From Siphonodentalium dalli (lineage: Eukaryota; Mollusca; Scaphopoda; Gadilida; Siphonodentaliidae), in NCBI GenBank assembly GCA_032622095.1, contig CP136067.1, positions 83,044,705-83,108,704 on the forward strand: a stretch of 64,000 nt of DNA. The letters are read 5' to 3'. Every line of letters begins with the position of its first letter. Position 1 is the first letter of the stretch. The translations under genes and the position numbers were made by a program. Of the stretch, positions 3,607-52,823 are shown piece after piece. Under the pieces are notes generated by a model. That model made no database searches. It worked only from the letters and a program-made list of their open reading frames with translations, and was not told the DNA's origin.

Positions 3607-3660
3607 GCGTATTTAACCAGAAAAGATGGACAACTCTAATACCAAGTAGTTATTATTACC

Positions 3661-29625: not shown

Positions 29626-29661
<36 letters not shown>

Positions 29662-30928: not shown

Positions 30929-31672
30929 CTAGCATGTTAGCCCGCCACTGGCGGCATTCGTCTCATGGCTTTGTTTCAGAAACATGACATTTTTTTAATT
31001 TAACCAAATTTCAAGTCGATAGCTCCACCCGTTTCCGACATCTGGTCTGCGCATGCGCGAAGCTGGCGTCGCACGGACTCGGCCACCCGATAAAATTTGT
31101 ATCCGGGGCAAGATACATTCACATAGCAAATTTCAAGTCGATAGCTCCACCCGTTTGCGAGATAACGCATTCTATGTTTTTCAATGAGTTAATTCATGGT
31201 ACCCGTCCTCCCCGTCCTAAACTTCAGAGCGGACAGTCAATTAATCCCGTCGTGAAATCCCTCTGCATAATATTTCGAGCTCTTAGATCAATTCTGCCTT
31301 TTTAGTTGCATTTCGTCCGCATCCGTATTTCGGACGCATGGGGTCAGTCGTTTAGCCACGTCCATTGGAATCCGCATCGGACGCATGGGGTATCGTTTAG
31401 CCACGTCCATTGCAATAAAGAGCGTTAATTGTTAAAACCTCCGTATAAGGTATAGATAAAGAGCCTTATTGCCTTAACCCCCGCCGTGCCTTTGCGGTGA
31501 TTTGGGAGTGGATAAAGGGTGCTCATAGCTTCTCGAAAACACGACTACGGCGGTGTCGGTAGGATTTTACACTTACATACGAAATTTGATCTCAATCTGT
31601 ACACGCGTTTTGGATTCTATGAAGTACACACACACACACATATATACGAAGTCTCAAAATATATAGTATAGA
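30929..31672 (-). mobile_element. Array unit 4
   Basis: 3' terminus variant: GTTAGCCCGCCACTGGCGGC hairpin with CTAG. It holds a TGCGCATGCGCG palindrome near 31048 and the second copy of the 30452 segment. Confidence 0.65.
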
Positions 31673-32708: not shown

Positions 32709-33324
32709 CTAGAAGGTGACCCGACTTCGTCCGGGCTTTGACCATGAATTGTCCATTTTGAAGGTCAAGGTCAAGTGGGGTAACGATTTGACCAGTCCAA
32801 AACACTGCCCGGAAAAAAGTACCCGACAAACGTGCCCGTTGAAATACATCCGGTTTTACCCGATTTGACCTCGAATTGATCATCTTGAAGGTCAAAGTGA
32901 GGTCGGGGTCACGATATGACCCGTCCAAAACACACAGTGGACAACAGTAACCCCATGTATCAAATTTCGCCGAAATCCCATCAAAATTGGCGATTTGACC
33001 TTGAATTGACCCGATTTCAAGGTCAAGGTCACATCGCACGGGAAAATTAATATGCTTATGAGACTCCCCGTACGAATGTAACCCCACATACCAAGTTTCA
33101 TCGAAATCCCGTGATATTTGGGCGTTTGACCTTGAAATGACCCGATTTGAAGGTCAAGGTCACGTCGCACGGGCAAATCAATAGGCTATGTTAACCCCCG
33201 GCCGAAAATACCCCCACGTACCAAGTTTCATCGAAATCGGGTCGGTCGTTTTTGAGTTTATCGATTACACACACACACACAGACAGATACACACACACAC
33301 AGATCTTTCAAAATATATAATAGA
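32709..33324 (-). mobile_element. Array unit 6
   Basis: Four tandem repeats of about 130 bp, each with TTTGACCTTGA-type and TCAAGGTCA words and the TTTCATCGAAATCCC core. CA/GACA tract at the right. Confidence 0.7.
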
Positions 33325-34067
33325 CTAGAAGTTGACCCGACTTCGTCCGGGCTTTGACCTTGAATTGACCATTTTGAAGGTCAAAGTCAAGTGGGGTCAC
33401 GATTTGACCAGTCCAAAACACTGCCTGGACAAAAGTACCCGACAAACGTGCCCGTTGAAATCCATCCGGTTTTACCCGATTTGACCTTGAATTTATTATT
33501 TTGAAGGTCAAGGTCAGGTCGGGGTCACGATTTGACCCGTCCAAAACACTCAGTTGACAAAAGTACCCCCATGTATCAAATTTCGTCGAAATCCCATAAA
33601 AATTGGCGATTTGACCTTGAATTGACCCGATTAAAGGTCAAGGTCACGTCGCACGGGCAAATGAATATGCTTATGAGACTCCATATACGAATGTACCCAC
33701 GCATACCAAGTTTCATTGAAATCCCGTGATATTTGGGCATTTGACCCTGAAATGACCCGATTTCAAGGTCAAGGTCACGTCGTACGGACAAATTAATAGG
33801 TTTGTGCCACTCCCCGGCCGAAGATAACCACACATACCAAGTTTCATCGAAATCCCGTGATATTCGGGCGTTTGACCTTGAAATGACCCGATTTCAAGGT
33901 CAAGGCGACGTCGCACGGACACATTAATATGCCTATGTTCGTCCCCGGCCGAAAATACCCCCACATACCAAGTTTCATCGAAATCGGGTGGGCCGTTTTC
34001 GAGTTCATCGCGAACACACAGACAGACAGACAGACCGACACACAGATCTTCCAAAATATATAATAGA
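33325..34067 (-). mobile_element. Array unit 7
   Basis: Same subtype as unit 6 with one more 130-bp repeat. GACA tract near 34015-34040. Confidence 0.7.
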
Positions 34068-34780
34068 CTAGAAGGTGACCCGACTTCGTCCGGGCTATTC
34101 AAAAACCAAATTTCAAGTCGATAGCTCCACCCGTTTTCGAGATCTGGTCTGCGAATGCGCGAAGCTGGCGTCGCACGGGCTCGGCGACCCGATAAAATTC
34201 GTATCCGGGGCAAGATACATTCACATACCAAATTTCAAGTCGATAGCTCCACCCGTTTCCGAGATATATAGCCCAATGTCATTTGCGGATAGCTCGGCCG
34301 GTGATGAGTTAACGCGACATCTGCCGGTCAAGAGTTAACGCGATCACGTCACGATCTGTTGATGGCGTAATATATTTACGCAATGTTTTTCGATGAGCGA
34401 AGCACGGTCCTGTTCTTCCCGATAATTAAGGTAGAAACTTTAAACGTACACAGGCGTGTGATACATCATTGGAAAGATGAAGCGCCACAGATTCTAACCG
34501 TGCAAATTATATGACTGGCAATTTATTATTCGCGCTATATCGAATCGATTTGTGAGCACCGAACTGAAATATATTAGCGCAAAACGGCGTAAAAACAGAT
34601 TTGACCTCGGCACGTGAAAAGTTGAGCTCGGATCTGAAAATGAATAGGCCTATGCCACTTCCCGACAGAAAATACCCCCACATACCAAGTTTCATCGAAA
34701 TCGGGTCGGCCGTTATCGAGTCCATCGCGAACACACAGACAGACACACACACACACAGATCTTCCAAAATATATAATAGA
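34068..34780 (-). mobile_element. Array unit 8
   Basis: Unit-2 subtype. Its GCGCATGCGC palindrome is mutated to GCGAATGCGC near 34150. Confidence 0.7.
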
Positions 34781-35159
34781 CTAGAAGGTGACCCGACTTC
34801 GTCCGGGCTATTCAAAAACCAAATTTCAAGTCGATTGCTCCACCCGTTTCCGAGATCTCGTCTGCGCATGCGAGAAGCTGGCGTCGCACGGGCTTGGCGT
34901 CCCGATAAAATTCGTATCCGGGGCAAGATACATTCACATACCAGATTTCAAGTCGATAGCTCCACCCGTTTCCGAGATCTCGTCTGCGCATGCGCGAAGC
35001 GGGCGCCGCACGGGCTCGCCAATACGACAACGACGACCGCCTGGTCAAACTACACACACGTACCAAGTTTCGTCCCGATCGGTCGAGAATCGTAGATTTG
35101 TATTAATGACAGACAGACAGACAGACAAACAAACAGAGGTCTTCAAAATATATATGAGA
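34781..35159 (-). mobile_element. Array unit 9
   Basis: Two 124-bp repeats with GATAGCTCCACCCGTTTCCG and GCGCATGCG, then a GACA tract and the GAGGTCTTCAAAATATATATGA 5' end. Same subtype as the plus-strand units at 60.7-63.0 kb. Confidence 0.7.
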
Positions 35160-35998
35160 CTAGCAGGTTAGCCCGCCACTGGGGGCATTCGTCCCATGGC
35201 TTTGGTCGATCCATTAATTTTAGTTTTTCAATGTAACCCGTACAGGACCGGGCTACTCAAAACCCAAATTTCAAGTCGATAGCTCCACCCGTTTCCGAGA
35301 TCTGGTCTGCGCATGCGCGAATCTGGCGTCGCACGGGCTCGGCGACCCGATAAAATTCGTATCCGGGGCAAGATACATTCACATACCAAATTTCAAGTCG
35401 ATAGCTCCACCCGTTTCCGATATCTCGTCTGCGCATGCGCTGCATGGGCGTCGCACGGGCTCGCCAATACGACAGCGACGACCACCTGGTCAAACTACAC
35501 TCACGTACCAAGTTTCGTCCCGATCGGTCGAGGTGTTGGTATCTGATGTAAAAGACGAAATTGTGAGTGTTGGTCAATAGTCCCCGCCGTGAACCTCATC
35601 GTCGCAAAGAGCGGACAGTCAATTAACCCCGTTGTGAACCTCAATCACCAACGCGACGTAAACATGTGTTGCGTTCTAAAAATAGGAAAGCACTTTCTCT
35701 CTGCATAATTCTGCAGATGCTAATAACGTTGCTTCCCGTAGGTAGCAATATCGTTGTTGTTGATATTTACGGCTTGGGGGCTATTTTATTATTTAGCAAG
35801 TTTGAGCTCAATCGGTTCGAGTCTATAAAGGACACACTCATATATATGACACTTCCCGTAGGTAGCAAGTTTGAGCTCAATCGGCATTCCCTGGAATTTC
35901 CCGTAGATTGGCAGATTCCAGTAGCTTTATAACGGTATATCTGGGGAGAAATCTGATGCTATATTCGTGATTATGTGGGATGATTTCTCGTCTGATTT
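35160..35998 (-). mobile_element. Array unit 10 (composite)
   Basis: Begins with the GTTAGCCCGCCACTGGGGGC terminus and has two 124-bp repeats. From 35505 it carries a block repeated nearly exactly at 36462-36905. It lacks the microsatellite 5' end. Confidence 0.55.
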
Positions 35999-36128
35999 CT
36001 AGCAGGTTAGCCCGCCTGCGCTGCACGGGCGTCGCACGGGCTCGCCAATACGACAGCGACGACCACCTGGTCAAACTACACTCACGTACCAAGTTTCGTC
36101 CCGATCGGTCGAGGTGTTGGTATGATTT
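35999..36128 (-). mobile_element. Array unit 11 (130-bp remnant)
   Basis: Only the CTAG end and the block with GGGCGTCGCACGGGCTCGCC through GGTCGAGGTGTTGGTAT remain. Both borders read GATTTCTAGCAGG, suggesting recombination between identical ends. Confidence 0.55.
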
Positions 36129-37330
36129 CTAGCAGGTTAGCCCGCCACCGGCGGCTTGTCCGAAACATGACATTTTTTTAATATTTTTTTTTAATTTTTA
36201 GCTCCACGCGTTTCAATAAGAACAATTTGTACCCGGTAGCTCCACCCGTTTCCGAGATCTGGTCTGCGCATGAGCGAAGCTGGCGTCGCACGGACTCGGC
36301 GACCCGATAAAATTTGTACCCGGCGCAAGATACATTCACATAGCAAATTTCAAGTCGATAGCTCCACCCGTTTCCGATATCTCGTCTGCGCATGCGCTGC
36401 ACGGGCGTCGCACGGGCTCGCCAATACGACAGCGACGACCACATGGTCAAACTACACTCACGTACCAAGTTTCGTCCCGATCGGTCGAGGTGTTGGTATC
36501 TGATGCAAAAGACGAAATTGTGAGTGTTGGTCAATAGTCCCCGCCGTGAACCTCATCGTCGCAAAGAGCGGACAGTCAATTAACCCCGTTGTGAACCTCA
36601 ATCACCAACGCGACGTAAACATGTGTTGCGTTCTAAAAATAGGAAAGCACTTTCTCTCTGCATAATTCTGCAGATGCTAATAACGTTGCTCCCCGTAGGT
36701 AGCAATATCGTTGTTGTTGATATTTACGGCTTGGGGGCTATTTTCTTACTTAGCAAGTTTGAGCTCAATCGGTTCGAGTCTATAAAGGACACACTCATAT
36801 ATATGACACTTCCCGTGGGTAGCAAGTTTGAGCTCAATCGGCATTCCCTGGAATTTCCCGTAGATTGGCAGATTCCAGTAGCTTTATAACGGTATATCTG
36901 GGGAGAAATCTGATGCTATTCGTGATTATCTGGGATGATTTCGGTATATAACTATATACTGTAAAAACAAAGCGCGCCATCCGTGCTCGCAGGGTTGGTC
37001 AGAAACAAATGTTTTTTAAATTTAATGTATGTTCCGTATATCTCTCTGCAGATGCAAATAACGTTGAATGGCAAACAGACGCTCTTTATAGAGATGCGTC
37101 AAAAACAAACGCTCATTAAATAATCACTTGATTAACCCACGCCGTGCCTTTGCGGTGATTTGAGGTTGGAGAACGGGTGCTCTGAGCTTCTCTAAACCGC
37201 GACCACGGTCGTGTCGGTGTGATTTGACACTTACATAGGAAGTTTGAGCTCAATCTTTACACGCGTTTTGGATTCTATGAAGTACATACATACATATATA
37301 TATACGAAGACTCAAAATATATAGTATAGA
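36129..37330 (-). mobile_element. Array unit 12 (composite)
   Basis: GTTAGCCCGCCACCGGCGGC terminus, two 124-bp repeats, the second copy of the 35505 block, then a block like that in units 3 and 4 ending in CATA/TA and CGAAGACTCAAAATATATAG. Confidence 0.6.
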
Positions 37331-37494
37331 CTAGAAGGTGACCCGACTTCGTCCGGGCTTTGACCTTGAATTGTCTATTTTGAAGGCCAAGGTCAAGTGG
37401 GGTCACGATTTGACCCGTCCAAAACACTGCCCGAACAAAAGTACCCGACAAAAGTACCCTTTGAAATCCATCCGGTTTTACCCGATTTGACATT
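37331..37494 (-). mobile_element. Array unit 13 (3' fragment)
   Basis: 164 bp matching the start of unit 3, cut where unit 14's terminus begins (GTAGAAGG instead of CTAGAAGG). Looks like an internal deletion joining two units. Confidence 0.55.
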
Positions 37495-38234
37495 GTAGAA
37501 GGTGACCCGACTTCGTCCGGGCTTTGACCTTGAATTGACCATTTTGAAGGTCAAGGTCAGGTGGGGTCAAACACCAACACCCCAAAAATGGTGGAAATCG
37601 GCCCAGCGGATACCGGGAAATCGGCCCAGCGGATACCGAGATACCCTATGCATCAAATTTCGTCCTTAAAAATCCGCCAGTTTAACCCGATTTGATTTCC
37701 ACTCAAGTATATAAACGCGCCTCATATACACACGCTCATTAATTATCAAGTTTCAACGTAAAGATAAATTACCATCGGTGCCCGAGATATCGCCAAGACG
37801 TCTGAAACAGTCAAATGCATCGGCCGGTTAAGCGTTAACGTGATCTAACGTTATGACCTCTAACGACGTCATAGAAGTTACGCATTGTTTTTATCCTGAG
37901 GGAAGATAGTACCACTTCTTCTTGATAATTGAGGCAGATAACCAAAACGGATACATACGCATTATATATCGTTGGAAAGAGGAAACACGAAAGATTCTCA
38001 CAGTGTCATTATCATGACTGGCATTTTATTATTCACGCTGTTTCGAATCGATTTGTAAGCACAGAACTCAAATGAAAGTCCCGTAACACAGCGTAAAAAC
38101 AGATTTGACCTCGGCACGTGAAAAGTTGACCTCGGATCTGAAAATCAATAGGCCCATGTTCGTTCCCGGGTCGAATTACGTGTCCGTACCAAGTTTGGTC
38201 GAAATCGGTCCAGCCGTGTTCGAGTCCATCGCGA

Positions 38235-38268
<34 letters not shown>

Positions 38269-38300
38269 ACAAACACACAGATCTTCCAAAATATATAATA
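37495..38300 (-). mobile_element. Array unit 14
   Basis: Near identical to unit 1 through the GACGTCATAG box. Ends in a long CA tract (about 38236-38278). Confidence 0.7.
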
Positions 38301-39086
38301 CTAGAAGGTGACCCGACTTCGTCCGGGCTTTGACCTTGAATTGACCATTTTGAAGGTCAAGGTCAGGTGGGGTCAAACACCAACACCCCAAAAATGGTGG
38401 AAATCGGCCCAGCGGATACCGGGAAATCGGCCCAGCGGATACCGAGATACCCTATGCATCAAATTTCGTCCGTAAAAATCCGTCAGTTTAACCCGATTTG
38501 ATTTCCACTCAAGTATATAAACGCGCCTCATATACACACGCTCATTAATTATCAAGTTTCAACGTAAAGATAAATTACCATCGGTGCCCGAGATATCGCC
38601 AAGACGTCTGAAACAGTCAAATGCATCGGCCGGTTAAGCGTTAACGTGATCTAACGTTATGACCTCTAACGACGTCATAGAAGTTACCCATTGTTTTTAT
38701 CCTGATGGAAGATAGTACCACTTCTTCTTGATAATTGAGGCAGATAACTAAAACGGATACATGCGCATTATATATCGTTGGAAAGAGGAAACACGAAAGA
38801 TTCTCACAGTGTCATTATTATGACTGGCATTTTATTATTCGCGCTGTTTCGAATCGATTTGTAAACACCGAACTCAAATGAAAGTCCCGTAACACAGCGT
38901 AAAAACAGATTTGACCTCGGCACGTGAAAAGTTTACCTCGGATCTGAAAATCAATAGGCCTATGCCACTTCCCGACCGACAGGACCCTCACATACGAAGT
39001 TTCATCGAAATCGGGTCGGCCGTTTTCGAGTTCATCGCGAACACACAGACAGATACACAGACAGATCTTCCAAAATATATAATAGA
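38301..39086 (-). mobile_element. Array unit 15
   Basis: Near identical to units 1 and 14 over about 600 bp. GACA/GATA tract at right. Confidence 0.7.
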
Positions 39087-39689
39087 CTAGGTGACCCGAC
39101 TTCGTCCGGGCTTTGACCTTGAATTGACCATTTTGAATGTCACGGTCAGGTGGGGTAACGATTTGACCCGTCCAAAACACTGCCCGGACAAAAGTACCCG
39201 ACAAACGTGCCCGTCGAAATCCATCCGGTTTTACCCGATTTGACATCGAATTGATAATTTTGAAGGTCATGGTGAGGTCGGGGTCACGATATGACCCGTC
39301 CAAAACACACAGTGGACAGCAGTAACCCCATGTATCAAATTTCGTCGAAATCCGATCAAAATTGGCGATTTGACCTTGAAGTTACCAGATTTCAAGGTCA
39401 AGGTCACGTCGCACGGGCAAATGAATATGCTTATGAGACTCCCCATACGAAAGGACCCCCACATACCAAGTTTCATCGAAATCCCGTGATATTCGGGCGT
39501 TTGACCTTGAAATGACCCGATTTCAAGGTCAAGGTCACGTCGCACGGACAAATTAATAGGCCCATGCCACCCCACGGCCGAAAATACCCCCACATACCAA
39601 GTTTCATCGAAATCGGGTCGGCAGTTTTCGAGTTCATCGCGAACACACACACAGACACACAGCCAGACAGATCTTCCAAAATATATAAT

Positions 39690-39692
<3 letters not shown>
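39087..39692 (-). mobile_element. Array unit 16
   Basis: Unit-6 subtype with four 130-bp repeats. Its terminus lacks AAGG (CTAGGTGACCC). The 5' end meets the TA run that ends the neighbouring retroelement. Confidence 0.7.
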
Positions 39693-39730
<38 letters not shown>

Positions 39731-40382
39731 ATGTATATTTTAATACAAGCAACATCTCAGACATCCCTTACACACCTACACATGTCAGCATACATGAACA
39801 AAACAAACATAAATGTACGTTCTTACGTGCACACAGCTACCACTCACCAGATATACAAAGTTACACGGGCGTCAAGGCACGTAGATTGGACGGACAGACA
39901 TAACTATATATAGATGACATCATAGATCATCATACAGTCAAGTAGACATATATTTTAGTTAAGCATCATTCATTAGGGTACGGTTACTGAAACCATTGGT
40001 GTTTGTTCGATTCTACGATAGGCTTTCCATAAGCAAAATGTGCTATTTACCATGAAGTTTGTGAACAGGTCTGGCTCTTCAATTTCGTCGAACAAATCCG
40101 GCGGACGTGCAGTTAAAAATACTTCCAGTTGTGTACGCGGATTGTAGCTATCCATTTTAAGTGAGCACGGAATACCGAAGAGATTTAGTAATTCATACCA
40201 TATGTCATTTCTAAGTTCCAGAATCATAGGACAATGTATGATTACATGTAAGGGCAGATCGTCAAACTCCGCACCACATCTGCAGTTACAATGTGTCTGT
40301 TCGGTACAGGCTATTATGTTTGCAACAGTTAGGTATGCCGCCTTGTTTGTCGGAAACTTGCGACAGGACTTCCACAGGCACG
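39693..40382 (-). pseudogene. Old CR1-like element, 3' piece
   Basis: On the minus strand it is open from 40382 to 39973 and aligns to the C-terminus of the 1161-residue ORF2 at 44294-47779: CLWKSCRKFP against LLWQTCRLYP, a cysteine/histidine cluster HCNCRCG..LHVIIHC against CLLCN..IEHTIINC, and NDIWYELLNLFGI against NNIWYDIINTFGI. A non-coding 3' tail follows, ending in a TA run (39693-39723). It continues directly from the piece at 43283-43829; the two were parted by a 2.9-kb insertion. Dead fragment. Confidence 0.85.
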
Positions 40383-40743
40383 TTTAGGAGAGCTGTTTTC
40401 CGGGTCTAGTAGAAATTTAGTAGAGCCTCTTTAGAGCTCTAAGCTTTCGGGATCTGTATAAGAATGAAACACAGACTGTTGCGTAGAGTGTGTTCCGTGT
40501 CCAGTAGAAGATTTTCCGTGTAGATGTTCCGGGTTAGAAGAAGTGTACAAATCTTGAGGAATTAGTCGTTTTAATTTGTACATGGATAAACAGATGTAAC
40601 AGCAGCAACAATATATATATATACACATAACATCTGTCTAGCATATAATGACCCCGCCGGACCGCATAGCATGCAGCCCGACGGGTAAACTTGTCCGACA
40701 GCAATCTTCCAAATTCTGAATCTCTCTAGTGTTTTTTTTATCC

Positions 40744-41771
40744 TCCCTACCCTTGTTGTTGAGTCGTTTCCGGCCGAAGGCCGGGTAGGGTGGTCGGACT
40801 GCAGTGTGCAAGTCCCTTCACCCTTCCTTGGTTTTTCCGATGAAAATCGAACATGTTGGCTGTCGTAGGTGTTGTGGTTGGAGGCAAGGCGGCGAAAGCG
40901 TGGTGGAGGAGTCTTAGCGGCGGTTGTTTTGTTTCTTTCTATTTCTCTTTCTCTTTTTTGGCGGTGGTTCGGATGGTGATGTTTGCAAACTTGGAGTCGG
41001 ACGATTCATGATCTTTTCGGTTTCGGCTTGTACTAATTCGGATTTTCTTACTGCTTCTTGTGCTCTCGCTACAATTTCCATTAAGTTCTTTTGTCTTTCT
41101 TCTTTTTCGGAGTCGGATGTGTCGTCGGATTCGGGGTCGCAGTCAGAGTCGGAATCAGATGTGTCGTCGGGGTTGGAGTCAGAAGTGTCTTCGGGGTTGG
41201 AGTCAGATGTGTCTTCGGAGTCGGAGTCAGAAGTGTCGTCGGAGTCGGATGTATCTTCGGGGTCGGATGTTGGTGCTTCGTTTGCTGTAGGAGAGGCAGG
41301 TGAAGACTCCGGTTCGGTGTAATCCGGCGTCTTCGGGTTGAAAAATGAGATGTCCGCGTCTATCCGTGGCGATGGGGAGTCCATTACCACTTCGGGCGGT
41401 GAATCGATCACGGCTGCGCGGGAGGTGTCGCCTGGTGTGGCATCAGTCGATTTCCTCTTTTTCCGCGCAGCCAATCTCTCTGTGTCTCTCTTTTTCCTGG
41501 ATGGAGTCTTTTTCTTTCGCTTCTTCCTAGCTGGTTTGGTAGTTTCCAGACCTCTCCCGGTAGAGAGCCCTGATAAGGGATTTGCCGGGCAGGACTGGAA
41601 GTCCAAAACCAACTGGTATCCGCCTTTGTGTGCATGGAGTGACCAGCTCACTCAAGGCGCGACATGCATGGAGTCCAGCATTGTTGTGATAGCATTCGGG
41701 ATTTTCGGTGGCGTAGTCATCCTGAGAGGTGGCGATCCTAACTCTCTGGTGGTCCGACTCGAAATCTGTGT
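40744..41771 (-). repeat. 1028-bp tandem duplication, unit 1
   Basis: Direct repeat of 41772-42770 with roughly 97% identity by eye. Differences are concentrated in the acidic-repeat coding part. The 3' side of each unit holds the hairpin CCGGCC-GAA-GGCCGG (near 40770 and 41798). Confidence 0.9.
40914..41651 (-). pseudogene. Acidic DTSDS-repeat protein, duplicate copy with a nonsense codon
   Basis: Same product as 41943-42731, but TGT has become TGA at 41652-41654, just before VSWSLHAHKGG. The frame has no ATG there (it opens at GTG), so an N-terminal segment is lost. The rest stays open to TAA at 40914: a basic run (KKRKKKTPSRKKR), serine/proline-rich spacer, acidic repeats (six or seven copies of DTSDS with SNPE/SNPD linkers), a helical segment near NLMEIVARAQEAV, and a nuclear-localisation-like tail PPKKRKRNRKK. 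No promoter elements lie just upstream, unlike the other copy. Probably inactive, or at most downstream sequence of the other copy's transcript. Confidence 0.6.
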
Positions 41772-42770
41772 CCCTACCTTTGGTTGTTGAGTCGTTTCCG
41801 GCCGAAGGCCGGGTAGGGTGGTCGGACTGCAGTGTGCAAGTCCCTTCACCCTTCCTTGGTTTTTTCCGATGAAAATCGAACATGTTGGCTGTCGTAGGTG
41901 TTGTGGTTGGAGGCAAGGCGGCGAAAGCGTGGTGGAGGAGTCTTAGCGGCGGTTGTTTTGTTTCTTTTTATTTCTCTTTCTCTTTTTTGGCGGTGGTTCG
42001 GATGGTGATGTTTGCAAACTTGGAGTCGGACGATTCATGATCTTTTCGGTTTCGGCTTGCATTAAATCGGCTTTTCTTACTGCTTCTTGTGCGCTCGCTA
42101 CAATTTCCATTAAGTTCTTTTGTCTTTCTTCTTTTTCGGAGTCGGATGTGTCGTCGCAGTCAGAGTCGGAATCAGATGTGTCGTCGGGGTTGGAGTCAGA
42201 TGTGTCTTCGGGGTTGGAGTCAGATGTGTCTTCGGAGTCGGAAGTGTCTTCGGAGTCGGATGTATCTTCGGTGTCGGATGTTGGTGCTTCGTTTGCTGTA
42301 GGAGAGGCAGGTGAAGACTCCGGTTCGGTGAAATCCGGCGTCTTCGGGTTGAAAAAGGAGATGTCCGCGTCTATCCGTGGCGATGGGGAGTCCATTACCA
42401 CTTCGGGCGGTGAATCGATCACGGCTGCGCGGGAGGTGTCGCCTGGTGTGGCATCAGTCGATTTCCTCTTTTTCCACGCAGCCAATCTCTCTGTGTCTCT
42501 CTTTTTCCTGGATGGAGTCTTTTTCTTTCGCTTCTTCCTAGCTGGTTTGGTAGTTTCCAGACCTCTCCCGGTAGAGAGCCCTGATAAGGGATTTGCCGGG
42601 CAGGACTGGAAGTCCAAAACCAACTGGTATCCGCCTTTGTGTGCATGGAGTGACCAGCTCACACAAGGCGCGACATGCATGGAGTCCAGCATTGTTGTGA
42701 TAGCATTCGGGATTTTCGGTGGCGTAGTCATCCTGAGAGGTGGCGATCCTAACTCTCTGGTGGTCCGATG
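41772..42770 (-). repeat. 1028-bp tandem duplication, unit 2
   Basis: Promoter-proximal unit of the duplication. Homology with unit 1 stops at GGTGGTCCGA (42770). The spacer between the units is about 13 bp of unshared sequence. Confidence 0.9.
41943..42731 (-). CDS. Uncharacterised basic/acidic-repeat protein (262 aa), intact copy
   Basis: I do not recognise a family. I chose ATG at 42731 as the first in-frame Met; the frame extends to 42827 without another ATG. In order: MTTPPKIPNAITTMLDSMHV, then CVSWSLHAHKGGYQLVLDF (residues about 19-37), a compact W..GGYQL.LDF block like short domains in some invertebrate mobile-element ORFs (inference). Then come a basic run near residues 56-72, Ser/Pro-rich sequence, acidic DTSDS repeats (about 145-190), a predicted helix NLMEIVASAQEAVRKAD, and a basic tail PPKKRKRNKKK typical of nuclear import or nucleic-acid binding. 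No catalytic motif, signal peptide or membrane segment. A TATA box lies about 105-120 bp upstream. GC content is clearly higher than the flanks. It could be an accessory protein of the inserted element, or a captured gene. Confidence 0.55.
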   Translation of the reverse strand: MTTPPKIPNAITTMLDSMHVAPCVSWSLHAHKGGYQLVLDFQSCPANPLSGLSTGRGLETTKPARKKRKKKTPSRKKRDTERLAAWKKRKSTDATPGDTSRAAVIDSPPEVVMDSPSPRIDADISFFNPKTPDFTEPESSPASPTANEAPTSDTEDTSDSEDTSDSEDTSDSNPEDTSDSNPDDTSDSDSDCDDTSDSEKEERQKNLMEIVASAQEAVRKADLMQAETEKIMNRPTPSLQTSPSEPPPKKRKRNKKKQNNRR

Positions 42771-42832
42771 CTGAATGATGGAGGTTGAGGTTGACGAATG
42801 TCTGTTTGAAAATGATCGACTACCCAAAATTA

Positions 42833-42881
42833 CCGTAGCTTTTTATATTTTTTTCGATGCAGGTCGCGATTGGTTATAACT
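42833..42881 (-). promoter_or_regulatory. CCAAT and TATA boxes upstream of the repeat-protein gene
   Basis: On the minus strand, ACCAATCGCG (about 42866-42876) is followed some 20-30 bp later by AAATATAAAAAGC (about 42838-42851). Order and spacing fit a Pol II core promoter for the ORF starting at 42731. No experimental support; AT-rich sequence can mimic TATA. Confidence 0.45.
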
Positions 42882-43282
42882 GGTGTGATTTCGTTACCAA
42901 TCCGTTACCCGTTGTTACAACATAGGTGATTGCGTAATTACACATATGTAGAGAAAGCCGCTAACAATATATTCCCATGAATTATATGTTTCGATAATCT
43001 GGATCTTTTTACACAATATATTCTTAATTCGAGCGACTATTCATAAATGGGCTTTTTGCGATAATAACTATGACGCAACGAGACTCCATTGTATAATGTT
43101 TTAACAGGTTTTAGAAATTTGCCGAAGGCTACCCATTTACGACATATGTTGTAATTAGCGCTAATTATGTCAAAATCGACGTACGTGGTATTGTTATCGG
43201 AGCGTGAAATTATCCTACGAGAAATACTCAGTTTATGGAATCGTGATCAATTTGAGCAAGGGGGGATTTATTCACTCTGACA

Positions 43283-43829
43283 CACGACAGTGAGAGTGTA
43301 GGGTGAATATTATGGAAACGGTGGAGTGTTGGATCCGCGTTTCCAGAGAGTTCCCAGATTGAGTTAGAGGTTTCGACGATTGCATTTCGAACGATTAGCT
43401 TCCATGATGACCTTTCCGGAAATGCACATTTTTATACATACTTTGTTAAATAATGCATAAGTCGGTGATTTGCAAGGACATCTGCGATATCGGCAATGAA
43501 TGAATCGGCTGATACGCCGGAGATAAAGTATGAGTGTAGCCTAAGTAAAAATACAGATTTCGCTGCCTTGTCTGTAGATAAATGACATAGACTGCCCAGA
43601 AGTAGGAGTTTTTTCTTATCCATAAAGCTTTTGACATTGCCGATACCCAGGAGTCCTTCCACTACATTAGTGCGCGTGTGCATACGAAGACAAAAACGGT
43701 GAGATCTTTCCAATGATAGGGTGTCTGAGTCTGACATGCCACATAATAGTTCACACCCAAATAGGCCTCGTGACACAATGATTGACGTGTACATTTTTAA
43801 ACTGCTAGTGGGTGTTATTCATCCAGCAT
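43283..43829 (-). pseudogene. Old CR1-like element, middle piece
   Basis: Minus-strand open part 43794-43432 aligns to the post-RT region of the intact ORF2: YTSIIVSRGLFGCELL against YKSIVLPKALYGSELF, RSHRFCLRMH against RAHRFCLKHI, VEGLLGIGNVKSFMDKKKL against VQGLLGCGGLESYIDKRKL. Stops lie near both ends (within AG-stop-ITPTSS near 43825, and after KYV at 43432), with a frameshift, after which alignment resumes (SSWKLIV against KSYWKNIV) to TLSLSC at 43283. The upstream boundary is the 3' end of the young CR1-like element; the downstream one is the CACG insertion site. Confidence 0.85.
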
Positions 43830-44293: not shown

Positions 44294-47200
44294 TCAATTT
44301 CTTAACAAGGCCAAGCAATACCATAGCTTGAGACTTGATTTGGCGAAAAAGTGTACTGCAAATGGTAATGAACAATTTCCCATTTCTACTAAAGAAGATG
44401 GTATATTCCCCAGAAATATGGATAACTGCTTTGCCCCTGTCAACTCGTCCATATACATAAAAGCATCTATTCCGAACGTGTTAATGATATCGTACCAAAT
44501 ATTATTCCTTGTATTCGATATGGAAGTGCAGTTTATTATGGTATGTTCTATAATGCATTGATATTGCGTATTACATAGTAGACAAAGCCCGTTATCTTTA
44601 TATGCGGTGTGAGCGATAAGTCTAGCAATCATAAGAAATGTAAATTTTTCATCTGGATAAAGCCTGCATGTTTGCCACAGTAACGAGGAATTGAGTTTGG
44701 TTTGTGTAAGTCCATATTGTGCCAGATCACTATTTGATTCAATACTCTTTCTCCACTCAAGTGCATTTATAGTGTTAATCTCAGTTTTTACGATATTCTT
44801 CCAGTATGATTTGGTGGGAAACGTGCTTTCGAGCGTATAGCGTTCTAGGTACTCATATAAGTTATACCTCTTTAGAACTGTAGAAATATCTGCCATGAAG
44901 GATTGTGGGTGAGAAATTCCAAGAATATGACTATGAAGCCGCACTAGGAACACGGATTTAGCGGTCTTATTTGTATTTAGTCTACATAATGTTGCTAGTA
45001 AGCTTAATTTCCTTTTATCAATATAGGATTCAAGCCCACCGCACCCCAGAAGCCCCTGTACGATGCAAGTTCTGGTTTGTTGTGGGAATCCTTGAATATG
45101 TTTTAGGCAAAATCTATGTGCTCTCTCCGTGTATGCATGAGAAACATTAGATATATTCCAGAACAGTTCACTACCGTACAGAGCCTTAGGGAGGACGATG
45201 GACTTGTAGATACTGAAACAACTGTATGGGGTGATACCGCCTGCGTATAATCCTGCATTGGTCAGCGATAGATATGTGCCTTTGAGTTTTGTGCAAATTT
45301 TGTTTGCAAGTTTTGAGTTAAAGCTGAATTTCTCAATAGGGATTCCCAAGTGTGTTCCAGATTCCACTTCATGTATTACACTGTTGCCAAATTGCCACGA
45401 TCTCTGTGATTTAATGAATTCACGTTGCGTTTCGTTGAAAACAATGATGAATGTCTTGGATGAGTTATAAAGGTATCTCCATTTCAAGCTATATTCTAGA
45501 CAAATATTATACAAAGTACGTAGGCCTGACTCTGAAAGTGATAGAAGTACCATGTCATCCGCCTGTACTGGCGAAGTGCACTTTATATCATGCATGTGGA
45601 GGCCACATAAAGAATTTTCCAACTCGTATATGAGGTCGTCTACATACATCATATAAAATAGAGGTGAGAGGATAGAGCCTTGTCTAGCTCCTTGAAAGAT
45701 GCCAAACCAGTCTGAGAAAGTATTTCTATACCGTACGCAACATTCGATACCCGTCAGGAGTGCTTTGAAAGTGTGCCATATAATACCATTGAATCCTCTT
45801 TTATGCAATTTGTACAAAAGACCATTTAACCAGACGGAATCAAACGCTTTTGAGACGTCTAGAAAACAGGCGAATAATTTACTGTGCGTCTCTTTAGTGT
45901 AGGAAATGCACTCCTGTAATAAGTACGAAGTTGCCATACAGCTTACTCCGCTCTGAAAACCATGTTGGAGTGGGTTGATGGCTATATTGTTTGGCGTGTA
46001 TGATTGCAAGCGCATGAGTATCACTTTTTCATATAGTTTATATAAAGCAGGCATGATTGTAATTGGTCTGTAGCTGTCAAATGCTTGTTTTGACTTTTTA
46101 CCGCCTTTATATAGAGATATCATCACTCCTTTCTTGGCATTGTTAGGAACATATGAAAATTCTAACATCTTACTGAAAAGGTGGCACAATTTACAAACTA
46201 TGCACGGTGCGCTATAAACAATGTGTTCATTTGTTATCGAGTCATGTCCCGCTGCTTTATTCCTGTTGAGTTTAGGTATAATATCGGTCAACTCTGATTC
46301 ACTAACTGGACAGCAGAGAATTTTATCAAGGTCGGTATATTTGTCTTTTTTAATAGACGATACATATGAATTAACCGATTTAAGATGATTAGCGTCAAAC
46401 TGCTCATTTTGTAGTGGTATGAATAGGTTTCCATAGTATGATGCCCATGCATTAGATATAGACTGGTTAGTACGGAGAGTTTCACCGTTGTGCACGAAAT
46501 GTGACGGCGATAGCGTGTTACGTTCTCTGTGTTTGTAATTGACCAATCGATAGAATGTATTCTGATCTATTTCTGCGCACTTGTCGATTTCGGCATCACG
46601 GTCCCGCATAAATTGTTCTGAAATTTTGCGATGTGTACGTCGAAAAGAGCGTTTTGCTTCTTTATAATGGCGATATGAATTTGAACCTTCGTAATGAGGT
46701 TTGCCTTCTGCCAACCAGCATCTGCGACACTCGCGCATATTAAAGTGGACGGATTTTAACGATTTGTTCCAATATGGTTTAATATGACTACGGAATTTAG
46801 ATTTAGGAACAACTTCTGAGGCTGCATTACTGAGAGCAGAAACTAAGGAATTATAATAGTTATCAATCGAAGATACACTATCTATTTCAACAGTAGGGCA
46901 ATTTTTACCCACGTTTGTCGCAAACGTACGAGCGAGTGTCGGATTTGAATTCAGAGCTGACCATTTTAATTTTGACGAGCACTGTACATGGGAGGCCTGA
47001 GGCTGAAGTACTTCGTCATTCATACATAATACAATGGGACGATGCGTTGATACGTCGATGCTATCATCTTGTAAAATATCAACTGTTTGTATTTTGTGGC
47101 TCATTGCTTTATGAATAAGGAAATGGTCTATAATTGAACCGGAATCAGGATATGTCGGTGGTACGAATGTTTTTACCGTGGTAGTTTTGAACGATTTTTC

Positions 47201-47779
47201 AATTGGAGAGCAAACACCTTTGTCCATAAACATATTTGTCAATAGCGTGCCTCTGTAATTTGGGCGAAAGGAATTTACGTTAAAGTCCCCCATAACGATT
47301 ACAGTTCCCAACGAACTATAATAGTCAAATAAATTTGACACTTTCTCAATATACTTTGAGAAAAAATCGTCAGAGTAATTGCTGGAAGGAAGATATACTT
47401 GGAATATGTAGTAAAATGTCCATTGATTAATGTATAGTTGAATTCCAATAATTCTATCATCTTCAGTGTCGATAATTGATACATTATCATTCCACTGCTT
47501 ATGCCAAAAAATAGCTACTCCGGCTTTTGGTCGACCCTTTTTATCAGGAGGGCCGGGTGTTGCGTCACATACAGTGTAGGAGTTATAGTATTGTGATATA
47601 TGGTCCATGAACGATATATTGGATTCCTTCAGCCAATGTTCTGAGATGCCACAAACGTCCACTCCCTGCCTATCGAGAAATCTAGATAAGTAGGAGGTGG
47701 ATGAAAAGATGCCAGTGGCATTCCATGACATAAAGGATAACATGCTGAAAATAAAATATGTATAAAGAAGTGACATCAT
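44294..47779 (-). CDS. CR1-like ORF2: endonuclease plus reverse transcriptase, 1161 aa, intact
   Basis: Nicks the target and copies the element's RNA into it. N-terminal exonuclease/endonuclease/phosphatase-type endonuclease: SWNATG (residues about 17-22), SEHWL (about 43), MGDFNVNS (about 164), IIDHFLI (about 217), and STHRPIV where SDH is usual. Reverse transcriptase: HGFQSG, CFLDVSKAFDSVW (about 640, first catalytic Asp), FQGARQGSILSPLFY (about 700), and VQADDMVLLS (about 740), where Q replaces the usual F or Y before ADD. After the thumb comes a C-terminal zinc-like cluster CLLCN..IEHTIINC (about 1070). No RNase H seen. Two ATGs open the frame; no stop or frameshift in 3.5 kb, so this copy is young and could be active if transcribed. 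CR1/Jockey group placement rests on motif order only. Confidence 0.9.
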   Translation of the reverse strand: MMSLLYTYFIFSMLSFMSWNATGIFSSTSYLSRFLDRQGVDVCGISEHWLKESNISFMDHISQYYNSYTVCDATPGPPDKKGRPKAGVAIFWHKQWNDNVSIIDTEDDRIIGIQLYINQWTFYYIFQVYLPSSNYSDDFFSKYIEKVSNLFDYYSSLGTVIVMGDFNVNSFRPNYRGTLLTNMFMDKGVCSPIEKSFKTTTVKTFVPPTYPDSGSIIDHFLIHKAMSHKIQTVDILQDDSIDVSTHRPIVLCMNDEVLQPQASHVQCSSKLKWSALNSNPTLARTFATNVGKNCPTVEIDSVSSIDNYYNSLVSALSNAASEVVPKSKFRSHIKPYWNKSLKSVHFNMRECRRCWLAEGKPHYEGSNSYRHYKEAKRSFRRTHRKISEQFMRDRDAEIDKCAEIDQNTFYRLVNYKHRERNTLSPSHFVHNGETLRTNQSISNAWASYYGNLFIPLQNEQFDANHLKSVNSYVSSIKKDKYTDLDKILCCPVSESELTDIIPKLNRNKAAGHDSITNEHIVYSAPCIVCKLCHLFSKMLEFSYVPNNAKKGVMISLYKGGKKSKQAFDSYRPITIMPALYKLYEKVILMRLQSYTPNNIAINPLQHGFQSGVSCMATSYLLQECISYTKETHSKLFACFLDVSKAFDSVWLNGLLYKLHKRGFNGIIWHTFKALLTGIECCVRYRNTFSDWFGIFQGARQGSILSPLFYMMYVDDLIYELENSLCGLHMHDIKCTSPVQADDMVLLSLSESGLRTLYNICLEYSLKWRYLYNSSKTFIIVFNETQREFIKSQRSWQFGNSVIHEVESGTHLGIPIEKFSFNSKLANKICTKLKGTYLSLTNAGLYAGGITPYSCFSIYKSIVLPKALYGSELFWNISNVSHAYTERAHRFCLKHIQGFPQQTRTCIVQGLLGCGGLESYIDKRKLSLLATLCRLNTNKTAKSVFLVRLHSHILGISHPQSFMADISTVLKRYNLYEYLERYTLESTFPTKSYWKNIVKTEINTINALEWRKSIESNSDLAQYGLTQTKLNSSLLWQTCRLYPDEKFTFLMIARLIAHTAYKDNGLCLLCNTQYQCIIEHTIINCTSISNTRNNIWYDIINTFGIDAFMYMDELTGAKQLSIFLGNIPSSLVEMGNCSLPFAVHFFAKSSLKLWYCLALLRN

Positions 47780-47816
47780 CAGAGAAGAACTATAGTTCTG
47801 ATCTCAATGATGCAGT

Positions 47817-48305: not shown

Positions 48306-48439
48306 TGTAACGTTGCAACGCCTTACACCGCAATTAACATACATGTAGGGCCTATTGTTTAGTGAGCTGACATCGCAAGCTCCTACTTCAAACTTTTACA
48401 ACTTTGTCACCGAATTTGACCAATACATCTGCAAGCGAA

Positions 48440-50038
48440 ATGGATCCGATATCAAATAATCCCATGTATATAAGACTACAAAAAGATAACGATGACTTAA
48501 AAAACGAAATTAAAGGCCTTAGACATGAATTAGCCGCAATACGAATTTCAAACGAAAAAGCAATAGAAAATCTCATGAAAAAAATCGGCGGAAAGAGGGA
48601 CACCTCGGAAAACAAGAAAGAGAAAGAAAGTAAGAAGAAAATCTCAACCGACAAAGGAAAGGGTATTCAACCTATTCCAAAACGCACCTGCACCACACCC
48701 AAACCAGCATCAAAGCCAGCCCCAAAAATAAATCAATCAATTAGCAAATCAGCCAATCGCACCTGCACCAAACCCAGCACTCTCCCGGATTTTCAACCAT
48801 CAACGAGCGCTATCGATTTCAACCCAGCCACTCCAAACTTCAGTTCAAAACAAAGGTCCCCCTTAAATAGCCCTACAAGCAGAACTTCATCCCCCAAAGA
48901 CAATACGAGCATGGATTATACAAAACAAGCCACTGATTCCTTTATTAACATTGATAAGGAAGATGTCAACCCTATCGCATGGAATCTTAAAACTAATAAC
49001 AAACGAGCAAAGAGGAAATTGGACAATGAATTCGAAAGCAGTAACAAAAACCCACGATTCAACAATAGCCAGCCCAGTCAAAGTCATAGTCAAAGATTAT
49101 CCCTCACAACAGGTCAACCAATTCAAAAACTAACCCTTTTCGCAGAAAATGCTACATCCGACATGAAAAATAGCCCATTTTTTCTTTAAAAAATCGTGAA
49201 TGATCAAAACTTTGAAATTCAATTGACAAAAAGTGGAAACTTATTAATATATCCAAGCGACATTAAGACAAAATTATACTTCATGAATCAGGCTTCCAGG
49301 GACCACCCCATCCTTTCTAAAGTTACATTCCGCCCAACAAGAGGAAAAAGGGAATCGCCTATTAACCGACATGTAGTAATATGCGGGGTCAACCCAGAAA
49401 TCCCAATTGAGGAAATCCAATGGGCCATAGGACCACAGTACGAAGCAAAAAGAATGCACTCTGCCAAGCATGATGACGCTCCTACACGAAAAATTAAAGT
49501 AACATGCCCGGATGAACCCAGCAAAGAAAGAATGCTAAAGGGGGTCCAACTTGGCGCCTATAAAAACTGGTTTAAAGTAGTAGAGTACCAACCCCCAGCA
49601 CACATCACTCAATGCCTGAGGTGCTTCGGCTATCGACACAAAGTAGCCGGGTGCACAGCAGACAAGGAGTTATGCAAGAAATGCGCAGAACAGCATAACT
49701 ATAAAACCTGTGAGTCGGAAATAAGGAAATGTATTAACTGCAATGGGGACCATCCAGCCTCCTTCAAGGGATGTATAGCATATAAAGCAGAAGCAGAATT
49801 AAAGGAAAACAGAAAGCTGACATACGCCGCCGTGGCAAAAAAACCAGTAGAAACAAGTGAAGCCATCAGATTCGCAGCCACAATCGTGGAATGCCTTATA
49901 GAATTCAAAACTTGTAATGACAGCAACGCTATTGTACAAAAAGTCACCGAAAAAGTAAACCAACACTTCAAAACAAATATCCACAGTTCCTGTGTAAGAG
50001 ACTACACCCGTGAAATAAACAAAATTAACCAGAACTAA
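48440..50038 (+). pseudogene. Jockey-like ORF1 (Gag-like, three zinc knuckles), one in-frame stop
   Basis: Nucleic-acid-binding protein that packages the element's RNA. ATG at 48440 opens MDPISNNP. Then come a coiled-coil region (LQKDNDDLKNEIKGLRHEL, residues about 12-30), a basic Lys-rich run, a long Pro/Ser/Asn-rich linker, and NSPFFL followed by TAA at 49187-49189. The same frame continues to 50038: QLTKSGNLLIYP and VVICGV (the domain preceding the knuckles in Jockey ORF1s), then three CCHC-type knuckles starting at CLRCFGYRH (about 49613), CKKCAEQH and CINCNGDHP (about 49737). One base change (AAA to TAA) would account for the stop. No other defect. Confidence 0.85.
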
Positions 50039-50101
50039 AATTAATTATTCTTCTCAAAACAATATCTACATTCAACAATATTTACATTCAATAGTCAAAT
50101 A

Positions 50102-52823
50102 ATGGAAGATTTAAAAATATCTCATATCAATATTAATGGCCTCAGAGGTCACAAACAAGAAATAATAGAATATATCGAAGATTACAAACCACATATAATA
50201 GCACTTAACGAAACAAAATTAGATCATAAATCAAAAATCCGTTTTCCAGGATTTAACTTAATACGAAAAGACCGAAATTGCCACGGCGGAGGTGTTGCCT
50301 TCCTTATCCAACACGGCCTAAAATACAAACTTGTAGAAAATATCGCACCTATTGATAGTGATGGAAATGTTATTAATGATGAAGTTATTGCTATAGATAT
50401 CACTATTGACAACAAAAAAGTCACCATTATCTCCCTGTACTACCCTCCACAAATTACCTCTTCACCCAATCTAGAAACACTTAAATTCTTTAAAACAAGA
50501 AACAAACAATGTATATTTTTAGGGGACTTCAACGCCAAACATCAAATTTTTAATAGCAAAGCAACAAACAAACATGGAGACATCCTATTTGATATTAAAG
50601 AAGAACTAGAGCTTATTCACTTAAACGATGCTGGTGAGCCAACCCATTGTTCAACTCTAACAAGGGTATGGGATGTAATAGATCATGCGTTCGCTACGGA
50701 GGAAGCTGCCAAACTCTGCATCGAAACTACCATAGGTGCTGATGTTGGAAGCGATCACCTCCCGCTCGAACTAAAAATAACAAAATTCAAAAGCAGCAAA
50801 GCAAAAGTCAAACTAAGAAGAAACATAGGCAAAGCCGACTGGCAAAAATTCAAGCAAGAAATCATTTCAAACCTGTCAAACTCTGACTTAAATTCACCCA
50901 GAGCTCTAAAATTAGCTGCAATAAATATATCGGAAACACTTAACAACGCACTTAAAAAAGAGGTAAAAGCTCATACGTGGAGGGTGTCCAGAGATACACT
51001 GAATCTTATAAGGTTCAAAAGGAAAATACGGAGACTCTCAGCGAAGAACCCCCATGACAATGAATATAAAACACTGTATAATAATCTCAATAGACAAGTT
51101 AAACAAAAAATCAAAGAAGAAAAAAATGAATCCTGGAAAAAAATAACATCCAGTCTTAACGACCAAAACATGGATAGAAAATTCTGGCAAACATTCAAAA
51201 CGCTTACGGGCCAAGGGAACAATGCAGCATCAGATAATTTTAAATCACTAACTGACCAAAATGGAAAAAAATCTAACAATGACCAAGAAAAAGCCCAAAT
51301 CTTCGCGGAGAGTCTACGCAAAATCCACACCACCCATGAAGGCGATATATTTAACAAACGTTTTAAACGTTTCGTCAACGATTATATCGATGACAACTCA
51401 GAAATCTTCGCACCTCTGCTAAAAGATAAAGTCGAACCAGGCGACGACGATCTCCTAATGACCGAAATCGATTTGGAAGAAGTGAGAAGGAATCTGAACC
51501 GGGGAAAACCTAACAAAGCACCCGGTGACGATGATATCACGTACGGCGTAATTAGACAGGCGCCGAACGAGCTATTTATTCGTCTGACTAACCTATATAA
51601 CAAATGCCTGAGACTGGGTTACTTCCCCAAAACATGGAAAACTGCAATCGGAACAATGATTCCTAAACCCGACAAGGACCATACTATCCCAACCAACTAT
51701 AGGCCCATCAGCTTATTAAAATGCATAGGCGAACTTTTTGAAAGGATTATTAGCACACGTATAAAGACTCATTTAGAGAGCATTAATTTTTTCAACAAAC
51801 ATCAACGGGCTTATAGGAGCGGGAAAGAGGGCATAGAACATGTATATCGATTAACGGAAGATATTAGAACGGCAATAAGCAGACGCTGGGAAACTGGGGC
51901 CATATTCCTCGACGTTGAAAAAGCTTTTGATTCTGTATGGCATAATGGGCTCAGATACAAACTCAGAACACGCACAGAACTACCACAAAAAATAGTTAGA
52001 CTTCTATCATCGTTCTTAACACACAGAAATATAGCGGTTAAAATAAATGATGAAATTTCCGAAACAGTCAACCTTAAAGCCGGTACCCCCCAGGGGTCAG
52101 TCTTAAGTCCTCTCCTTTTTTAATGTACGTAAACGATATACCTTTAGAGTCTACACACAATGTACATGCTTCACAATTTGCAGACGACATGGGCATATGG
52201 ACACTAGCAAAGGGAAATAAATTAATTGAACTTAGACTGCAAAAACAACTCACAGAACTTGAAAAATGGTGTTCCAAATGGAGAATAAAACTAAATGCAA
52301 ATAAAACACAGTTGGTAGTATTTGGGAACCTAACTCATAGATCAGAGCCAAAACTCACGCTATTTAACGAACCAATAAAACAAAATATAGAAGCAACTCT
52401 ATTAGGATTCACTATAGATGAGAACTTCAGACTTAAAAAGCATATTAAGAATATTTCAACTAAAGCTTTACAAAGAACCGCACTCCTAACGAGACTTCGG
52501 GGCACGGGGTGGGGGTAAACCCAAGCACCCTAATCAAATTATATAAACAATTCATTCGCCCAGTCATGGAATACGGGGCAATAGTTACTTCAAAATGCAG
52601 TCAAACAAACCTATGCAGATTGCAGCGGGCCCAAAATGAAGCACTTAGAAGAGCCCTTTTCGAAATAAGGTCAACACCTATTTCTGCCCTTCATTTGACT
52701 GCAGACGTCCCATACATAAAACAAAGGCTTCAAGAACTGGCGGACCGAACTTTAACCCGTATCAGTAACTCCAGTCTCATAACCGAACTAAATCTAAGAA
52801 AGTTACTCCTCAACAAGGACTAA
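50102..52823 (+). pseudogene. Jockey-like ORF2 (endonuclease plus reverse transcriptase), two frameshifts
   Basis: Endonuclease at the N-terminus: HININGLRG (residues 7-15), ALNETKL (about 34), GDFNAKH (about 140), SDHLPL (about 216). Reverse transcriptase: KAPGDDDI, NYRPISLL, IFLDVEKAFDSVW (about 600), AGTPQGSVLSPLLF (about 660). The frame breaks at 52121 in a run of six T; the next frame holds MYVNDIP, FADDMGIW (catalytic ADD) and WRIKLNANKTQLVVF. It breaks again near 52515 in a run of five G, and the third frame carries VNPSTLIKLYKQFIRPVMEYG to TAA at 52823. Each break fits loss of one base in a homopolymer, so either decay or sequencing error. Motif C and the ORF1 type support a Jockey-like assignment. 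Confidence 0.9.

Follow-up and report, generated by a model that had tools for sequence, protein, structure and literature searches.

A solo LTR holding two nested, probably LINE-dependent retroposons in the scaphopod Siphonodentalium dalli

What kind of mobile element is an insertion of 2.9 kb that has clean ends and an open reading frame (ORF) for a repeat protein, and that shows no recognizable enzyme? Such an insert occupies positions 40383-43282 of a stretch of 64,000 nucleotides from the scaphopod mollusc Siphonodentalium dalli (GenBank assembly GCA_032622095.1, contig CP136067.1, positions 83,044,705 to 83,108,704; hereafter the window), and an initial annotation made from the letters alone regarded it as an undescribed-looking element, which may be a non-autonomous member of an unknown class or a fragment of something larger. 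The insert is a solo long terminal repeat (LTR) of a small non-autonomous LTR element. About 2.0 of its 2.9 kb, a feature overlooked in that annotation, form a head-to-tail duplication of ~1-kb units that are 96.7% identical to each other and each contain an ORF, and these units belong to a separate family of retroposons, probably dependent on a long interspersed nuclear element (LINE). We consider it highly probable that the locus is a composite, in which a solo LTR received two LINE-type insertions of a retroposon that lands 21-24 bp past TATA-like boxes; these boxes may provide the inserted copies with a promoter.

The insert as a solo LTR

Copies were sought in the window's own assembly (2.23 Gb in 9 contigs), and the counts from this search are lower bounds; gene positions are numbered along the minus strand of the insert. 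Both arms of the insert occur together at one second locus (L009, on contig C3), and the 1-kb unit alone occurs in many copies. For the right arm alone, 40 places were scored from 221 candidates: the window, 25 places with exactly gene positions 1-463, and 14 covering most of this segment (ends at 448-463). From these places 26 LTRs were fetched (L029-L035 and L039-L054, with L034 and L039 being the same place); the 14 omitted are the window, the C3 locus and copies within the arrays at C8:860xxxxx and C7:679xxxxx. The fetched LTRs correspond to fewer than 26 independent events, as local or segmental duplication relates those of L029, those of L033, and L048 with L049.

The LTR is empty in 21 of the 26, i.e. 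~831 bp long with gene positions 1-463 followed by 2531 onward, and four of these 21 (one each in L029, L033, L042 and L054) are truncated on the 3' side. A complete element is present at L053, where an LTR (162-996), an interior of 1831 bp and a second LTR (2828-3666) follow each other, with 17 differences between the LTRs per 830 aligned bases. At L030 the interior likewise has an LTR on both sides, but the 5' LTR lacks its end and the interior is incomplete. The initial annotation had proposed that copies with the same termini and differing 4-bp duplications would confirm mobility, and this is what the assembly contains: target site duplications (TSDs) are 4 bp long in all ten insertions with both outer ends visible (CACG in the window, CAGT in L030, ATAA in L032, AGCT around the LTR pair of L033, CCTT in L035, CTTC in L039, TCAG in L041, CCGG in L043, CAAT in L053, and TTTG as the common outer flank of L044 and L045, which are the two LTRs of one element). 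LTRs whose sides do not match are those with interior on one side only (L031, L040, L046; L048-L050, L052; L009, L029). A primer-site-like TTGGT(G/A)G lies 3' of the 5' LTRs in L009, L031, L040, L044, L046 and L053, and a purine tract, GGTAAGGGGGTAA (at least its last 12 bases), precedes the 3' LTRs in L009, L029, L030, L045, L048-L050, L052 and L053. In the window, the interior would presumably have been removed by recombination between the two LTRs. The suggestion that the insert could be a fragment of a larger element was thus correct, and the statement that it lacks LTRs was not, as it is an LTR itself; an undescribed class is unsupported for the 2.9-kb insert, and the ends proved to be those of an LTR, an outcome that the annotation had itself named as refuting its proposal.

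Some features weigh against an ordinary LTR element. The LTR termini are TG...AA (TGTCAG...CTAAA, in minus orientation in the window) instead of TG...CA; the latter is usual, not universal, and the abstract of PMC3701649 describes one element whose LTRs begin with TA. The interiors of L009, L029 and L053 yielded no pol, and their longest forward ORFs (133 amino acids in L009 and L053, 131 in L029) fall short of a Gag-Pol reading frame. Because none was found in these three interiors, we consider the element non-autonomous. A similar ORF of ~130 amino acids lies at the end of the interior in L009 (6882-7280, minus strand), L029 and L053; the one from L009, the sole one scanned, has no match in Pfam. 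In two places, C7:67907924-67966445 and C8:86023176-86031714, LTR matches are regularly spaced at ~2.67 kb and ~4.04 kb, and a 4038-bp repeat is present in L029; at the C7 and C8 arrays, tandem amplification thus seems to have included the LTR element.

The decayed CR1-like ORF that surrounds the insert gives further information on the insertion. If the insert and one CACG are removed, the intact relative of this ORF (44294-47803, minus strand) used as a tblastn query yields a single match of 308 columns and 181 bits, in agreement with the read-through noted initially, whereas the filled sequence yields two broken pieces of 120 and 67.8 bits. Among 98 CR1 relatives, 36 gave a match and 33 of these extended across the junction; the joined sequence scored higher than the filled one in 33 of 33, and a gap-free alignment within 14 residues on either side of the junction was obtained for only 15 of them. 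The initial annotation had called the insertion defined to the base. The CACG duplication has a chance probability of 0.07 (run of at least 4 within 25 bp at a fixed offset), and the exact base is insecure on the evidence of the window alone because a competing run, GAGAG, lies 6 bp beyond CACG at the identical offset; it was the copies elsewhere in the assembly that settled both ends. A 14-bp mismatched duplication spanning both runs (CACG.....GAGAG, chance 0.03) was dropped, as the genome copies have 4 bp.

The compositional and promoter-like features described before were all recovered. The insert is indeed richer in GC than the window (48% versus 40%), with the excess confined to the ~1-kb units (52%; the arms have 37% and 40%), and CCAAT and TATAAAA are present in minus orientation. 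No tRNA gene was found in the window and no Rfam match came near its gathering score, and an origin of the insert from a tRNA or an Rfam RNA was rejected. A 50-amino-acid ORF in the left arm was dropped as a coding candidate, the left arm being the downstream segment of the LTR.

The retroposon family and its candidate LINE partner

The repeat protein had been taken as part of the 2.9-kb element. It belongs to the retroposon family, which was inserted twice in the LTR. Twenty loci with copies of the unit were fetched first (the best matches, not a random sample); their unit ends are shared, and none of the 20 has adjoining flanks in common with another. These copies are 95-99% identical to the window unit, and 19 of the 20 have an ORF of at least 240 amino acids, with L022, L025 and L027 differing at the C-terminus. 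Because of this identity, albeit among best-match copies, and the long ORF retained in 19 of 20, some of the family, if not all, appears to be young. A repeat of at least 8 bp between the upstream and downstream flanks was seen at 15 of the 20 loci (L009 counted), compared with 2.5% of 400 mismatched flank pairs; with a tighter rule, TSDs of at least 8 bp were recognized at 17 of 22 loci outside the LTR (L036-L038 added, L009 set aside). The 5' leaders of the copies are hypervariable. At L036 a copy lies in an apparent C2H2 zinc-finger gene, where one open frame fuses zinc fingers to a protein of the 262-amino-acid type.

The intact ORF of 262 amino acids noted in the insert is real, and a search of the assembly with its protein, in which 146 of 7893 candidates were scored, produced 172 matches. 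Among the matches listed, the window itself has an identity of 100% and the others range between 98% and 59%; an internal stop is present in ~40 of ~165 listed rows, counted by eye and with many rows partial; most have none. A diverged type in L009 (type B, as opposed to the A type of the window) is the same protein, with an alignment score of 414 compared with 100 for the best of 300 shuffles, and the ratio of nonsynonymous to synonymous substitution rates (dN/dS) between A and B types is 0.45 over 100 N-terminal codons. Between the two window copies there are 13 substitutions, of which codon positions 1 and 2 account for 6, and this shows no clear constraint.

The 262-amino-acid protein has nothing significant in Pfam or PDB and no significant relative in IMG/VR, phage records (protein search) or GTDB contigs; matches in PHROGs are weak (E values of 0.13 and 0.44). 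One search of the protein database with residues 1-140 likewise gave no significant relative, and as this database includes LINE proteins of animals (the CR1-like ORF has 98 matches there), the absence is informative, not proof. A viral or phage origin was rejected for this protein and for the left-arm 50-amino-acid ORF, as no relatives were found in IMG/VR, phage records, GTDB contigs or the protein database. An AlphaFold model (from two sequences) suggests a helix at residues 9-17, a hairpin at 24-41 and a C-terminal helix at 197-232; at a mean predicted local distance difference test (pLDDT) score of 57.6 the model is too weak to support a fold search.

A possible source of the enzyme is found at L030. 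The last ~155 bp of the retroposon, including the hairpin CCGGCCTTCGGCCGG, are common to a LINE at that locus (86-88% identity to the dispersed units). ORF1 of this LINE shows CCHC-like knuckles by eye, without a Pfam match, and the copy lacks the start of ORF1; ORF2 contains an endonuclease domain (Pfam), and its reverse transcriptase was recognized by tblastx to a LINE in the window. The latter, at 48371-52518 on the plus strand, has CCHC-like knuckles in ORF1 (by eye) and endonuclease and reverse transcriptase domains in frames broken in places, and is a tblastx relative of the L030 LINE. Downstream of the distant members L036-L038, no LINE ORF was found in the ~5 kb fetched. Judging from the common 3' end, the retroposon is probably mobilized in trans by the enzyme of a LINE of this kind.

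It might be that the 262-amino-acid protein is itself the N-terminal part of ORF1 of the partner LINE, and the retroposon an ORF1-only derivative like HAL1. We regard this as a tentative proposal, a little below an even chance: the shared 3' end fits it, as does a weak similarity (score 84) between the protein and ORF1 of the related window LINE, but 2 of 300 shuffles reach that score and 14 of 300 reach that of the B-type protein, and the LINE copy in L030 lacks the beginning of ORF1.

Insertion downstream of TATA-like boxes

Filled LTRs make up 5 of the 26 fetched (both LTRs of L030, L039, L047 and L051; a unit-protein match beside L051, itself among the right-arm places, was already known before fetching), and adding the window and L009 brings the total to 7 filled LTRs with 10 insertion events. 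The fills are A-type units, B-type units and LINE copies, and all lie within LTR positions 448-470. In 8 of the 10 the 3' junction falls on the same base, the first G of GGGTAG at LTR position 458; unit 1 of the window differs by one position, and L047 is affected by deletions. The distance between this site and the T of the TATA box in TATAAAAA is 22 nt. The duplications made by the fills vary from ~4 bp up to 13-14 bp (L030, L039, L051), and the two LTRs of L030 contain different fills. Because fill types, duplication lengths and the contents of the L030 LTRs differ, the fills are the result of separate insertions at a single spot. The TATA-proximal copy of the window has an intact ORF, the distal copy a stop; in L009 the proximal copy is of A type (98.7% identical to a window unit) and the distal one is diverged. 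The younger-looking copy is thus the one nearest the TATA box at both loci.

The same spacing was examined at the 17 loci outside the LTR with a TSD of at least 8 bp, by counting TATAWA starting at -26 to -21 relative to the start of the TSD. With no or one mismatch the motif is present at 13 of the 17, whereas 60 control windows from these loci average 1.5 and never exceed 6, and it is exact at 6, compared with a control mean of 0.15 and maximum of 1; neither count was reached in 20000 random draws. With L011, whose TSD lies in a local repeat, re-anchored by hand, 14 of 17 loci fit, and their best boxes are at -21 to -24. At L036 a TATAAA is found at -23 within the apparent zinc-finger coding exon; this suggests that the sequence itself, without an active promoter, is enough for targeting. 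Outside the LTR, the boxes are only candidate promoter elements.

Several observations speak against this picture. No TSD of at least 8 bp was seen at 5 of the 22 loci, the count of 14 requires the re-anchoring by hand, and L012, L014 and L026 (3 of 17) have no TATA-like box at the given distance, the copy in L014 being directly behind another copy. Other motifs are present in the same interval of the 17 loci as well: antisense TATAWA (exact at 4, with no or one mismatch at 12), the reversed motif (3 and 8) and two scrambles (0 and 10; 1 and 3). If position is ignored, the top 6-mers of the -34 to -8 window, TATAAA and TATATA, occur at only 4 of 17 loci, and random sets have a mean top count of 2.6 and a maximum of 5. 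There is good support for an AT-rich, TATA-like box at a fixed distance, and its direction is only likely, because other AT motifs are also raised at that distance.

The signal at -21 to -24 could instead arise if the endonuclease, or chromatin, has a preference for AT-rich DNA at a fixed distance, or if start sites lie in open chromatin. The raised antisense, reversed and (in one case) scrambled motifs, an AT content of 0.63 between -34 and -8, and the lack of an outstanding 6-mer when position is ignored are in line with such a preference. We nevertheless find this reading unlikely, as the exact sense motif is the commonest of the five tried (6 of 17, compared with 4, 3, 1 and 0), the distance is tight, and the copy in the apparent exon of L036 seemingly needed no active start site.

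An improbable alternative is that the retroposon was ancestral to an LTR subfamily and its copies became different by later sequence exchange, without any site preference. All fills do share one LTR position, and gene conversion could swap A- and B-type units; yet the unlike fills in the two LTRs of one element (L030), the variable length of the fill duplications (the 13-14 bp ones of L039 and L051 being made of their own LTR letters) and the TATA spacing at sites outside LTRs are difficult to reconcile with it. That the whole insert is a DNA element of unknown class or a fragment captured from a virus can practically be dismissed: the absence of inverted ends, which the initial annotation had described correctly (951 and 803 of 1000 shuffles score equally well for inverted and direct terminal repeats, respectively), of an enzyme and of significant protein relatives would suit this idea, but the same ends bound the 831-bp LTR on both sides of an interior, and L053, L030 and the empty LTRs refute it.

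Table 1. Features of the insert in the window
Feature	Position	Strand	Evidence
Solo LTR of non-autonomous LTR element, with two nested retroposons	40383..43282	-	same ends in other copies; empty 831-bp LTR in L031; LTR-interior-LTR in L053
LTR 5' end (TGTCAGAG); LTR 3' end (CTAAA)	43282; 40383	-	
Target duplication CACG, left copy	40379..40382	.	4-bp duplications in 9 more LTR insertions
Target duplication CACG, right copy	43283..43286	.	
LTR upstream (U3-like) segment; CCAAT 42869-42873, TATAAAA 42841-42847	42826..43282	-	right-arm genome matches
GGGTAG, retroposon insertion site, 5' copy (LTR 458-463)	42820..42825	-	comparison with empty site in L031; junctions
Leader of retroposon 1, variable 5' end	42769..42819	-	
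Retroposon 1 core (TATA-proximal, ORF intact), 3' end ...CGACTCAACAAC	41783..42768	-	ends common to dispersed copies, adjoining flanks differ
Intact 262-amino-acid ORF of retroposon 1, basic tracts and DTSDS repeats	41943..42731	-	
Hairpin CCGGCCTTCGGCCGG near retroposon 1 3' end, in LINE-shared part	41798..41812	-	
Retroposon 2 (TATA-distal), own 3' junction on GGGTAGGGA	40753..41757	-	
Retroposon 2 ORF, one early in-frame stop	40914..41720	-	
LTR downstream (R/U5-like) segment	40383..40752	-	gene 2531-2900 directly joins gene 1-463 in empty LTRs

Elsewhere in the window, the open CR1-like frame beside the decayed, insert-bearing copy encodes 1169 amino acids with endonuclease and reverse transcriptase domains. 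A LINE reverse transcriptase fragment (RVT_1) is found at 54358-55320 (minus strand), and related direct and inverted repeats form dense arrays at 28000-39700 and 60650-63970, two regions that are partly complementary to each other.

Comparison with known elements and a possible course of insertion

HAL1 and HeT-A are LINE derivatives that retain only ORF1 or Gag, and with their one ORF they rely on the reverse transcriptase of another element. The retroposon resembles them in having one ORF, in being non-autonomous and probably in using the reverse transcriptase of another element; it differs in that its descent from an ORF1 is only a candidate one, in its length of 1 kb and in the absence of relatives from the other collections searched. 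Site-specific LINEs such as Tx1L, which inserts into Tx1D, and R1/R2 repeatedly enter one site of a repeated target, as the retroposon does; unlike in these systems, its target is apparently marked by a short motif away from the cut and not by one fixed host sequence.

Among LTR elements, PMC10886601 describes Helenus, a terminal-repeat retrotransposon in miniature (TRIM) with two LTRs around an interior without pol, signals resembling a primer site and a purine tract, solo LTRs, and 4-bp TSDs in animal Helenus. The S. dalli element shares all these features. Helenus LTRs, according to the same paper, contain a tRNA-like gene; no such gene was found in the window, and the S. dalli element further differs in its AAA end, its interior of 1.83 kb and its load of ORF-bearing retroposons. 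For the retroposon and its partner, a close parallel is TRE5-A of Dictyostelium, a LINE that, as described in PMC5391098, inserts ~47 bp upstream of tRNA genes (transcribed by RNA polymerase III), can build up tandems at targets already used, is accompanied by a non-autonomous partner and has an ORF1 protein that is bound in vitro by the TATA-binding protein (TBP). LINE machinery, a fixed distance to a promoter mark, tandems and a non-autonomous partner are common to both systems. In contrast to TRE5-A, the mark in S. dalli is a TATA-like box 21-24 bp upstream, which is seen in an LTR and also elsewhere, including an apparent coding exon. The literature searched, to the extent that its sources were seen, contained no LINE targeted to TATA boxes.

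The composite could have arisen as follows. Two copies of a ~1-kb retroposon unrelated to the LTR element would have been inserted successively at one LTR site by LINE-type target-primed reverse transcription. The retroposon inserts 21-24 bp 3' of TATA-like boxes, and its partner LINE does likewise at least in this LTR. The LINE endonuclease might be guided to TATA-like DNA by TBP or by a protein of the element, and nick the bottom strand 21-24 bp downstream of the box, with the nick priming reverse transcription of the retroposon RNA. An insert at this place should be transcribed from the TATA box of its host and would thus find a promoter ready. Transcription starting ~30 nt from the box would begin within the upstream copy of the TSD, so that each generation would gain a few host bases ahead of the unit, which would account for the variable leaders. 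A leader stretch common to L015, L016 and the window copy, CATTTTCAAACAGACA, begins ~33 nt after the window TATA box and fits such leader growth; the same would be seen if the unit natively began there. That the LINE/retroposon pair is indeed guided to RNA polymerase II TATA boxes, cuts 21-24 bp downstream and hijacks the promoter in the LTR, with the leaders being a record of earlier addresses, appears to us about evenly balanced between true and false.

A seemingly new element with clean ends and a target duplication can therefore be a solo LTR that holds younger passengers. Ty3 is targeted to sites of RNA polymerase III transcription. If the proposed guidance is true, the S. dalli pair would do for polymerase II what Ty3 and TRE5-A do for polymerase III, and landing at a fixed distance from a TATA box would spare a retroposon without an internal promoter, which is usually silent where it lands, from that silence.

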